From a virus, in IMG/VR virus record IMGVR_UViG_3300015076_000009, positions 1 through 27,753 of that record: 27,753 nt of DNA. One strand, 5' to 3'. Both the position numbers and the translations under genes were made by a program. This document shows positions 24,451 through 26,934 of this stretch, piece by piece (the stretch's first letter is position 1; each line of letters opens with the position of its first letter). The notes beneath the pieces were generated by a model that saw nothing but the letters and a program-made list of their open reading frames with translations, searched no databases and was not told where the DNA came from.

Positions 24451-24692
24451 ATATCCGACTCTTTGGTAAGACGGTGTGGGGGGACGAACCTCCATTGCCG
24501 CTCGCGCAGTCAATCAAGGAACGCGAAGAGGAGTTCGAACGTGAACTCATCAAGCAAGAGCTCGACTTAATCGATGCGGCTGCTCGAAAGGAAGGTCTTC
24601 GTCAGAAGATCGAATACCTGCGCAAGTACAACCGTATCGCAGATATCGACATGCCTGCGATTACGCGCATCCGAAAGGAATCTTCGAAGTGA
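24447..24692 (+). CDS. Hypothetical coiled-coil protein, 81 aa
   Basis: Not recognised. It starts MNIRLFGKTVWGDEPPLPLA and continues as a charged helix (IKEREEEFERELIKQELDLI), likely a coiled coil, then a basic helix. Both ends overlap neighbours by 4 bases; its stop overlaps the GTG of the ligase gene. It may be a partner of the ligase. Confidence 0.75.
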   Translation: MNIRLFGKTVWGDEPPLPLAQSIKEREEEFERELIKQELDLIDAAARKEGLRQKIEYLRKYNRIADIDMPAITRIRKESSK

Positions 24693-25591
24693 AGCCGCAT
24701 CTTGCAACGGACTGGGTGCGGGAGAAGCAACGCTTTCCTTGCATCGTCCAGCCGAAGATTGACGGCGTGCGTGGTATGACGTTGGCGAACGGGCTAACCA
24801 CACGTCGACTCAAGCCTCATCGCAATGCATACACGACCTCGCTCTATTCGCATCCCGACTTCAACGGATTCGACGGTGAGCTCGCTGCAGAACTCGAAAC
24901 GCATCCTGACCTCTGTCGAAAGACGGCGTCAGCGCTCAGCACGCGCGAAGGCCAGCCGTTCACACTCTGGTGGCTGTTCGACTATGTTACCGCCGCAACG
25001 CGTTATCTGCCCTACCGCGAACGCCACGATGCGTTGCTGTTGCGCGTTGCACAGATCCAGCAGAGCAACTTCATGGCGCAGCGACACCTGCGTATCGTAC
25101 CGACGTACGATATCATGAACATGGACCAGCTGGACGCCAAGCACGCGGAGTTCTGCGACGAGGGTTACGAAGGTTCGATCCTGCGCGATCCGGCAGGGCT
25201 GTACAAGGAAGGGCGCTGTACTGTTCGGGAAGGCGCGTTGCTTCGGATCAAGGACTTCGACTACAAGACAGCAGTTGTGGTCAGATACGAGGAAGGCCAG
25301 TCCAATGGCAACGAAGCACAGACCAACGAGTTGGGCAAGACGTTTCGTTCAACACATCAAGAGAACATGGTCCCTAACGGACTGGTTGGAACGATCGTTG
25401 CGCGCTGGGCAGACTCCGACGAAGTGTTCAATTGTTCTCCAGGCAATATGGATCATGATGAACGTTCCCGGGAATGGACCGCCCGTTCTGCCGCGCCGGG
25501 AAAGCTCTTCACGGCAAAGCACTTCGCGCACGGAGTAAAAGACAAGCCACGCTTTCCGACGTGGGTTCAATGGGGTGAGTTTGCAGCCTGA
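24689..25591 (+). CDS. ATP-dependent DNA ligase
   Basis: This 300-residue protein starts with GTG at 24689, coupled as GTGA. The nucleotidyltransferase motifs are in order: motif I QPKIDGVRG with Lys23, the residue that takes AMP; motif III NGFDGEL; motif IV EGYEGSILRDP; motif V LLRIKDFDYKTA. The C-terminus has the OB-fold segment (VGTIVARWADSDEVFNCSPG) and an FAHGVKDKPRFPTW ending typical of T7-like phage ligases. It seals nicks during replication and recombination. It is shorter than T7 ligase (359) but has every core motif. Confidence 0.95.
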   Translation: MKPHLATDWVREKQRFPCIVQPKIDGVRGMTLANGLTTRRLKPHRNAYTTSLYSHPDFNGFDGELAAELETHPDLCRKTASALSTREGQPFTLWWLFDYVTAATRYLPYRERHDALLLRVAQIQQSNFMAQRHLRIVPTYDIMNMDQLDAKHAEFCDEGYEGSILRDPAGLYKEGRCTVREGALLRIKDFDYKTAVVVRYEEGQSNGNEAQTNELGKTFRSTHQENMVPNGLVGTIVARWADSDEVFNCSPGNMDHDERSREWTARSAAPGKLFTAKHFAHGVKDKPRFPTWVQWGEFAA

Positions 25592-25599
25592 AACTAGGC

Positions 25600-25605
25600 T
25601 ATACT
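25600..25605 (+). promoter_or_regulatory. Promoter for the tRNA-like array
   Basis: TATACT lies 9 bases after the ligase stop, with a transcription start near 25612, just before the first tRNA-like RNA at 25615. The -35 region is weak. Confidence 0.5.
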
Positions 25606-25614
25606 GTTTTTAAC

Positions 25615-25779
25615 GGGTCGCGGTGCAATGGTGCACCGAGTGGGTTCTGTAAAAGTTGAGGTCAAACCGATTCTGCCCTAAACGTTGTCGGGCACAGAGC
25701 GTAGCGGGAAAGGCACTTCGGTGCAGCTGAACCGTCCATTCAACACTTGCGGCAGGTTCGATTCCTGCGCGACCCACCA
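25615..25779 (+). tRNA. tRNA-like RNA with a ~94-nt insertion in the anticodon region
   Basis: The acceptor stem is perfect (GGGTCGC 25615-25621; GCGACCC 25769-25775) with A and CCA at 25776-25779. The T arm GCAGG-TTCGATT-CCTGC is canonical. The 5' half has a D-arm-like TGC-AATGGT-GCA. GAGTG (25638-25642) can pair with CACTT (25744-25748) as anticodon stem, leaving 101 bases instead of 7. The insert has its own fold: GGTTC/GAACC closes it, with TCTGCCC/GGGCACAGA and GCAC-TTCG-GTGC hairpins inside. The anticodon cannot be fixed; CTGTAAA would give GUA (Tyr). Too short for a normal group I intron or tmRNA. Confidence 0.6.
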
Positions 25780-25786
25780 AGTTTAT

Positions 25787-25868
25787 GCGAGCTGGAATCG
25801 GATCGTTACCGAGGTGCTAAGGTGCTACCACACCGGGTAGGCGCTCACGGGATGCTCAGCTCGCACCA
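25787..25868 (+). tRNA. tRNA-like RNA without a canonical T arm
   Basis: GCGAGCT (25787-25793) pairs fully with AGCTCGC (25858-25864), followed by ACCA, in an 82-base unit sitting in the array. The inside is not tRNA-like: TCGG-N7-CCGA forms a small stem and GTGCTACC/GGTAG-G-GCGC a long bulged hairpin, but no TTCRA loop or normal anticodon arm is found. It may be a decayed tRNA or an RNA that keeps only the acceptor end. Spacers to its neighbours are 7 and 5 bases. Confidence 0.45.
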
Positions 25869-25873
25869 ATTTC

Positions 25874-25949
25874 GCCCCCTTAGCTCAGTTGGTAGAGCAT
25901 CTGCCTTGTAAGCAGGAGGTCAGAGGTTCGAATCCTCTAGTGGGCACCA
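25874..25949 (+). tRNA. tRNA-Thr (UGU)
   Basis: All arms are canonical: acceptor GCCCCCT/AGTGGGC with one C-T mismatch, D arm GCTC-AGTTGGTA-GAGC, anticodon stem TCTGC/GCAGG with loop CTTGTAA giving UGU, variable AGGTC, T arm AGAGG-TTCGAAT-CCTCT, and encoded CCA. It is the one clearly functional tRNA of the array. It reads ACA and, by wobble, other Thr codons. Confidence 0.95.
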
Positions 25950-25953
25950 GTTT

Positions 25954-26040
25954 CGCCGTATAGCTCAGACTGGTAGAGTCACCGTTCTGCCCGTGCACGG
26001 GTTCCGGAGGTCGTTGGTTCAAATCCAACTACGGCGACCA
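25954..26040 (+). tRNA. tRNA-like RNA with a palindrome in the anticodon arm
   Basis: Acceptor CGCCGTA/TACGGCG with ACCA, D arm GCTC-AGACTGGTA-GAGT, variable AGGTC and T arm GTTGG-TTCAAAT-CCAAC are normal. The anticodon arm is not: CCG and CGG enclose TTCTG, a perfect 12-bp palindrome CCCGTGCACGGG (25990-26001) and TTC. Removing the 12 bases gives near-normal tRNA length (75 with CCA). The isotype cannot be assigned. Confidence 0.65.
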
Positions 26041-26059: not shown

Positions 26060-26088
26060 GAACTTCAGTGTTCAACAAGGCTAACCAC

Positions 26089-26934
26089 ATGTCCCTTCTC
26101 CAAAGCATCACCGCAGGTCCTACGAAGTCCGGACTCCGCATTGTCGTCGCCGCGCTGGAGAAAATGGGTAAGACGACGATTGGCTCGCAGGCGCCCGGTG
26201 TGCTGCTCATCCCTCTGGAAGTTGGCTTTAGCGGCGTGACATGCCCCAAGACTCCGATGGTGACCGACTTCCCGCAGTTCATGCAGATCCTGATGGAGAT
26301 CAAGGACCTGGCGCAGAAGGGGCAATTCCCCTTCAAGACGCTTCTGCTGGACAGCGTCACAGGTCTGGAGAAGCATATCCACCAGTACGTGATCAGTCAG
26401 GACCCGCTATACAAACCGAACAGTCCGAAGAAGTCCGTTACGATGGACTCCGGGCATGGCGGGTATGGCAAGGCGTACAACCTGGCCAACGATTACTTCA
26501 ACCAGGTGCTGGCTCTGCTAGACGATCTCGCCGTCTACGCGAACATCAACATCGTGTTCACTGCCCACGTCTTCAGCAGCACCGTGAAGGATCCGACTGT
26601 CGGCGAGTACAACAGCTGGGACATTCTTCTTCACTCCCCCAAGAACGAGAAGACCTACGGCAAGCGTGAAATCCTGACGCAGTGGGCTGACGTGATTGGT
26701 TTCATGTACGAGCCGACGTCGATCAGCAAAGCGAACGACAAGGCAATGGCTATGGGTGTCAGCCTGAACAAGGGACGCATGCTCGCACTTTCGCGCACGC
26801 CATCATACACAGCGGGCAATCGTCTGGGTATAGTGGGCGAACTGGCTATCCCGGCTCCGCCGGAAAACGGCTGGAACACACTGGCGACGGCGATCCACAG
26901 CGCGTCGGGGATTGACATCTGGAACAAAGGGTAA
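26089..26934 (+). CDS. Sak4-like RecA-fold ATPase (AAA_24), 281 aa
   Basis: The start at 26089 has AAGG upstream; a GTG at 26068 is less likely. Walker A is ALEKMGKTTIG near residue 30, Walker B is FKTLLLDSVTGLEKHI around residues 82-97. NINIVFTAHVFSSTVKDP is the sensor-type strand. Proteins of this class (phage Sak4/AAA_24) act as single-strand annealing or RecA-like recombination factors, often together with a DUF669 protein, which is found here two genes later. The ATPase would assist recombination-dependent replication or repair. Length is as expected for the family. Confidence 0.88.
   Translation: MSLLQSITAGPTKSGLRIVVAALEKMGKTTIGSQAPGVLLIPLEVGFSGVTCPKTPMVTDFPQFMQILMEIKDLAQKGQFPFKTLLLDSVTGLEKHIHQYVISQDPLYKPNSPKKSVTMDSGHGGYGKAYNLANDYFNQVLALLDDLAVYANINIVFTAHVFSSTVKDPTVGEYNSWDILLHSPKNEKTYGKREILTQWADVIGFMYEPTSISKANDKAMAMGVSLNKGRMLALSRTPSYTAGNRLGIVGELAIPAPPENGWNTLATAIHSASGIDIWNKG

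Follow-up and report, generated by a model that had tools for sequence, protein, structure and literature searches.

The closest described systems are two RNAs of phage T4 encoded as neighbours in its tRNA array, rnaC (species 1 RNA, 139 nt) and rnaD (species 2 RNA), both of which are made late in infection according to Northern blots and have no known function (PMC9697503). rnaC is a stable non-coding RNA, present in 720 phage records, with a T arm placed on an acceptor-like stem; this stem has two U-U mismatches in most homologues and all 7 pairs in Yersinia phage fHe-Yen9-01, and its pair 3 is A-U in T4 and G-C in the other homologues. We also observed that several Tevenvirinae genera carry rnaC homologues in their tRNA arrays without annotation (L022 and L035-L039), and found an rnaD homologue in a phage filed under Vequintavirinae (L043). 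Other structured non-coding RNAs without a known function, GOLLD and ROOL, lie near phage tRNA islands (PMC12286853), and are far larger than the units of the array described next.

The locus of interest here is a tRNA array in a separate virus record of 27.7 kb, hereafter the window (i.e., the whole stretch of DNA that was analysed), where it has an ATP-dependent DNA ligase gene (24689-25591) on one side and a Sak4-like gene (26068-26934) on the other. The array consists of four units in a row, placed 4-7 nt apart, with the following features (coordinates are those of the window):

25615..25779, + strand: unit 1, expanded tRNA-like unit of 165 nt with an ACCA end (acceptor 7/7, T arm fully paired; not matched as tRNA by Rfam or ARAGORN)
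25615..25621, + strand: unit 1 acceptor, 5' strand GGGTCGC (partner GCGACCC at 25769-25775)
25623..25636, + strand: unit 1 D-like arm GTGC-AATGGT-GCAC (from the sequence)
25637..25642, + strand: unit 1 anticodon-stem-like 5' strand CGAGTG (partner CACTTG at 25744-25749)
25643..25743, + strand: unit 1 body replacing the 7-nt anticodon loop (from the sequence)
25752..25768, + strand: unit 1 T arm GCAGG-TTCGATT-CCTGC (5/5 pairs, canonical T loop)
25787..25868, + strand: unit 2, tRNA-like unit of 82 nt without a T arm, with an ACCA end (acceptor GCGAGCT/AGCTCGC, 7/7; 2/5000 shuffles)
25798..25812, + strand: unit 2 hairpin TCGG-ATCGTTA-CCGA (resembles the T4 rnaD hairpin; 6.2 bits, E 3, not significant)
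25825..25840, + strand: unit 2 hairpin CTACC-ACACCG-GGTAG (from the sequence)
25874..25949, + strand: unit 3, tRNA-Thr (TGT), 76 nt (ARAGORN; RF00005 71.6 bits)
25954..26040, + strand: unit 4, tRNA-Pro-like unit of 87 nt with an expanded anticodon arm (RF00005 42.9 bits; no assignable anticodon)
25990..26001, + strand: unit 4 palindrome CCCGTGCACGGG in the anticodon arm
26013..26029, + strand: unit 4 T arm GTTGG-TTCAAAT-CCAAC (from the sequence)

The acceptor stems of units 1, 2 and 4 are Watson-Crick paired at all seven positions while that of the ordinary tRNA, unit 3, has one C-U mismatch, making the original prediction of four matching 7-base acceptor stems slightly too strong. The rest of the predicted anatomy was borne out: an encoded ACCA terminates each of the four units, and the spacers are uniformly short and T-rich (AGTTTAT between units 1 and 2, ATTTC between units 2 and 3, GTTT between units 3 and 4). 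The predicted insert of ~94 bases in the anticodon region corresponds to unit 1, where the stem CGAGTG/CACTTG encloses 101 nt instead of 7 (i.e., about 94 nt extra) and the T arm (5 bp, loop TTCGATT) stacks directly on the acceptor. The unit said to lack a T arm is unit 2, in which the 17 nt at the expected place pair at only 3/5 positions and give no convincing T arm; its acceptor pairing can be extended inward past the seven pairs. Finally, the anticodon-arm palindrome belongs to unit 4, whose T arm also sits stacked on the acceptor. Unit 4 resembles phage tRNA-Pro (Caulobacter phage CcrPW and Vibrio phage K479), which its 3' half matches, in the T arm and variable loop, and that of CcrPW in the D arm as well, but its anticodon arm is ~10 nt longer, carries the palindrome and has no assignable anticodon; an exact-pattern scan with this palindromic arm gave no match in genomes.

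ARAGORN and the Rfam covariance models, which had been proposed as checks, agreed with the claim that only the tRNA-Thr is canonical. ARAGORN called units 3 (Thr, TGT) and 4 (amino acid not assignable) and nothing else in the window, and the Rfam tRNA model (RF00005) scored both, with unit 3 alone combining the two lines of support with an assignable anticodon and unit 4 being tRNA-like. Units 1 and 2 were not called as tRNA: they had no tRNA match in Rfam even at E<=10 and no Rfam family at a meaningful score. Neither program matched a tmRNA, a known intron, ROOL or GOLLD within the window, no further copies of the four units were found elsewhere in it, and no match to a sigma-70-type promoter was found near the array. 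Directly 5' of the array, where the ligase gene ends, a terminator-like hairpin was observed (25585-25600).

The arrangement of the array is not random. At least three such acceptor-plus-CCA units were obtained in 0 of 2000 dinucleotide shuffles of the array (mean, 0.06 units per shuffle), and when single segments were shuffled the stem arose by chance in 2/5000 cases for unit 2 and 73/5000 for unit 1, which however has its perfect T arm in addition. The stability gain upon whole-RNA folding relative to shuffles was modest for units 1, 2 and 4 (z of -1.83, -1.65 and -1.45, respectively).

Compared with the T4 RNAs, unit 1 shares with rnaC the position within a phage tRNA array and a T arm on an acceptor-like stem, but the expansion in rnaC is at the D-arm position, rnaC ends in ACA rather than CCA, and the U-U mismatches of most rnaC homologues contrast with the full pairing of unit 1. 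The points of likeness between rnaD and unit 2 are the rnaD hairpin (CCGG-GTCGCTA-CCGG), similar to the first hairpin of unit 2, and the end of rnaD, GCGCACC; yet the closing helix of rnaD excludes its hairpin whereas the unit 2 acceptor encloses its own. Homology between the two pairs of RNAs, plausible by eye from the array context and the shared hairpin, is not supported: covariance models built from seven homologues each gave 7.5 bits (E of 1.8, at noise level) for unit 1 with rnaC, and the score listed above for the unit 2 hairpin with rnaD. The architecture is similar; the place of expansion differs. The same loop as in the unit 2 hairpin, ATCGTTA, also occurs as an unusual T loop in a T4-like tRNA-Phe missed by ARAGORN (L022 838-912 and L037 1421-1495).

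Searches for homologues of units 1 and 2 found none in annotated phages, in plasmids (short matches only, over the T arm and end of unit 1) or by pattern searches of IMG/VR; an exact-pattern scan with the unit 1 D arm returned eight unrelated matches and one with unit 2 returned none. A phage tRNA-Asn equals the T arm and acceptor strand of unit 1 at 23/25 positions, with acceptor pair 7 altered on both sides, a resemblance that is suggestive rather than proof. The original prediction would have been refuted by canonical tRNAs at the place of the array in related phages, and the relatives compared have no tRNA genes there. Specifically, no tRNA separates the ligase gene from the Sak4-like gene in L001, L018, L020 and Pseudomonas phage MiCath, where the two genes are neighbours or lie close together, and hence the cassette is peculiar to the present virus among the viruses compared. 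Given this absence from relatives, together with the lack of a homologue of unit 1 or 2, selection on the present copy is unproven.

The architecture of unit 1 is, however, not unique, and occurs in other phages. We sampled IMG/VR by T-arm patterns and checked each T arm followed by a 7-nt acceptor strand and CCA (10 free bases before ACCA) for a partner strand, with swapped acceptors giving the chance level; the survey yielded 676 units called by ARAGORN and 97 uncalled ones, counts that reflect selection by T arm and are not population frequencies. Among the uncalled units, 16/97 had an acceptor partner only at 100-239 nt upstream, against 2.4 with swapped acceptors. Restricting the comparison to the 78 distinct uncalled units outside the window, 13 had such a distant partner only, against 2.1 (maximum of 7 in 200 trials), and 7 against 0.54 expected when GU pairs were disallowed. 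For 9-nt acceptors (12 free bases, a set that also takes in probable prophage attachment sites), 4 distant partners were found against 0.04 expected. Clearly, oversized tRNA-like units with matching acceptors exceed chance in phage DNA. Within the present array, unit 1 alone fits this expanded kind (i.e., matched acceptor, 5-bp T arm with a TTC loop, CCA, and 100-239 nt in length), while unit 2 falls outside it for lack of a T arm and unit 4 for its length (87 nt). Unit 2 is a separate case: chance is an improbable source of its acceptor, yet it lacks a T arm and nothing clearly comparable was seen elsewhere, since units of its type (7-bp stem without a T arm) numbered 10 against 4.8 expected, a weak excess not clearly above chance.

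Several of the expanded units recur. An unannotated 131-nt unit of Salmonella phage Munch with an ACCA end, located 4 nt after a tRNA-Glu (L051 8271-8401), is at least 99% identical across five jumbo-phage records. A 130-nt Leu-like unit of T4-like phages (SonariX/Kc304/KP1; L050 12548-12677, L037 2573-2702, and from 701 in both L176 and L177) was found in 143 phage records, mostly without RNA annotation. Two homologous RNAs of 134 and 135 nt with a T arm and ACCA (L071 3692-3825 and L126 1804-1938, the latter on the - strand in reverse-strand coordinates) have 9-bp acceptors that differ at three pairs, all of them compensated. These units, together with that of L062, are like unit 1 in having a matched acceptor, a perfect T arm and a body of >100 nt, often beside tRNAs; nonetheless, unit 1 has no sequence similarity to them outside the T arm, and some of them lack an encoded CCA or have 9-bp acceptors. 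Some expanded units are recognized by score as tRNAs carrying insertions (L062, 50.7 bits; L217, 49.5; L152, 41.4; L232, 38.7), and thus the kind is heterogeneous, comprising both insert-bearing tRNAs and look-alikes that are more distant. ROOL and GOLLD RNAs were also seen on the same phage contigs as expanded units (L134 3073-3704 and L152 3393-3857). In the open-access papers searched, oversized tRNA-like units were not described as a class.

Our best reading, to which we give about an even chance, is that units 1, 2 and 4 are maintained tRNA-like RNAs without a decoding role, whose tRNA ends serve their processing and stability. In tRNA operons, RNase P and 3' enzymes cut at the tRNA ends. 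The locus would accordingly behave as one short tRNA operon whose tRNA-like ends are recognized by these host enzymes, so that four RNAs are released, one being an ordinary tRNA-Thr and the other three being tRNA-shaped and probably non-decoding. The latter would retain the acceptor end and CCA (and, in units 1 and 4, the T arm) with the codon-reading part enlarged, replaced or missing. The most likely purpose of the tRNA-like ends would be maturation and a shield against exonucleases, allowing a structured RNA to accumulate during infection as T4 rnaC does. The predicted products would carry CCA and, for units 1 and 4, the acceptor-T domain, which is recognized by many proteins that bind tRNA, with no normal anticodon loop. 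As for what such RNAs might do downstream, we can only guess: they might act as decoys for host enzymes that bind or cut tRNA, or as regulatory RNAs.

The main rival, and a serious one for the present copy, is that these are ordinary phage tRNAs in decay, whose decoding part was destroyed by insertions and recombination and whose acceptor ends are intact because the damage is recent or local; we consider this a real possibility, if the lesser one. No conservation was seen in relatives, the match of unit 1 to tRNA-Asn would fit decay, and unit 4 is still tRNA-Pro-like, with a palindrome that could stem from a single template-switch event. Insertions into phage tRNAs do occur, as exemplified by L217 (3330-3481), where the anticodon loop of one tRNA harbours a whole second tRNA-like unit that has an ACCA of its own. 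Many unmatched 3' halves are present in phage DNA as well, but these cannot be read as decay because attachment sites also produce them. On the other hand, the acceptors are perfect in the three abnormal units whereas the ordinary tRNA-Thr has the mismatch, and the bodies of units 1 and 2 no longer resemble any tRNA, which argues against fresh damage. The excess over chance of oversized units with matched acceptors, some of them conserved, also speaks against decay. The original prediction had argued that preserved acceptor and CCA ends with altered bodies speak against simple decay; this holds for the kind, based on the excess, the conserved families and the compensatory changes, but not as evidence of selection on the present copy, for the reasons given above.

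A second alternative is that units 1, 2 and 4 are decoys or sponges: by imitating the acceptor, T arm and CCA they would tie up host enzymes or defences directed at tRNA. The original prediction had proposed CCA-dependent enzymes, RNase P or anticodon nucleases as the enzymes for which the units could be substrates or decoys. What has been retained is what CCA enzymes recognize, and defence nucleases likewise; Cas12a3, for example, engages the tRNA tail, acceptor and T arm (PMC12851939). Phages are also known to use tRNAs against defences that cut tRNA (PMC10264068, PMC11555353, PMC13096335). Unit 2, without a T arm, does not fit this idea well, and no published decoy of such a shape was found in the open-access papers searched. 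We regard decoys as rather unlikely for the three units; for unit 1, a decoy is the leading guess at its role, albeit an improbable one. It is important to note that the decoy idea overlaps with the reading of units 1, 2 and 4 as maintained non-decoding RNAs, being one possible function of these, and thus the likelihoods we attach to the readings do not add up to a whole.

That the inserts are introns, with units 1 and 4 being spliced to normal tRNAs, is very unlikely. The extra sequence does lie in the anticodon region, the usual site of tRNA introns, but no Rfam intron matched even at E<=10, and trimming the insert from unit 1 leaves no canonical anticodon loop by inspection. Further, the 94 nt of the unit 1 insert are too few for a known self-splicing group I intron, and splicing could not rescue unit 2, which has no T arm. 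An assembly or sequencing artefact is less probable still since, despite the cassette being carried by only one metagenomic contig, an artefact would not yield three evenly spaced units that each have ACCA and a perfect acceptor stem.

If units 1, 2 and 4 are mimics, the present array would contain three mimics for a single real tRNA. More broadly, phage arrays might commonly hide an unannotated kind of non-decoding tRNA mimic, selected for the acceptor, T arm and CCA while the bodies are rebuilt (e.g., as defence decoys), although we hold this generalization to be tentative and on balance doubtful. Annotation tools miss oversized tRNA-like RNAs because many of them do not score as tRNAs, while a simple search for a T arm, CCA and a distant matching acceptor strand detects them. 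Should phages maintain them widely, the oversized units would be candidates for countering tRNA-targeting immunity and would offer a testable route to the old question of the role of T4 species 1 RNA.

A few additional units recorded during the survey depart from the ordinary tRNA plan in other ways. In L127 (2239-2389, +) and L119 (2551-2728, -, in reverse-strand coordinates), two tRNA bodies appear to be fused tail to tail via their anticodon stems, in the order 5' half of A, 3' half of B, 5' half of B, 3' half of A; the B acceptor varies between the two with pairing kept (ATCCCC/GGGGAT vs. CACCGC/GCGGTG). Two odd T-arm units lie directly 5' of a tRNA-Tyr in L114 (about 560-697), one of which looks like a mini unit of ~53 nt with the 9-bp stem GAGGGCTGT/ATGGCCCTC.
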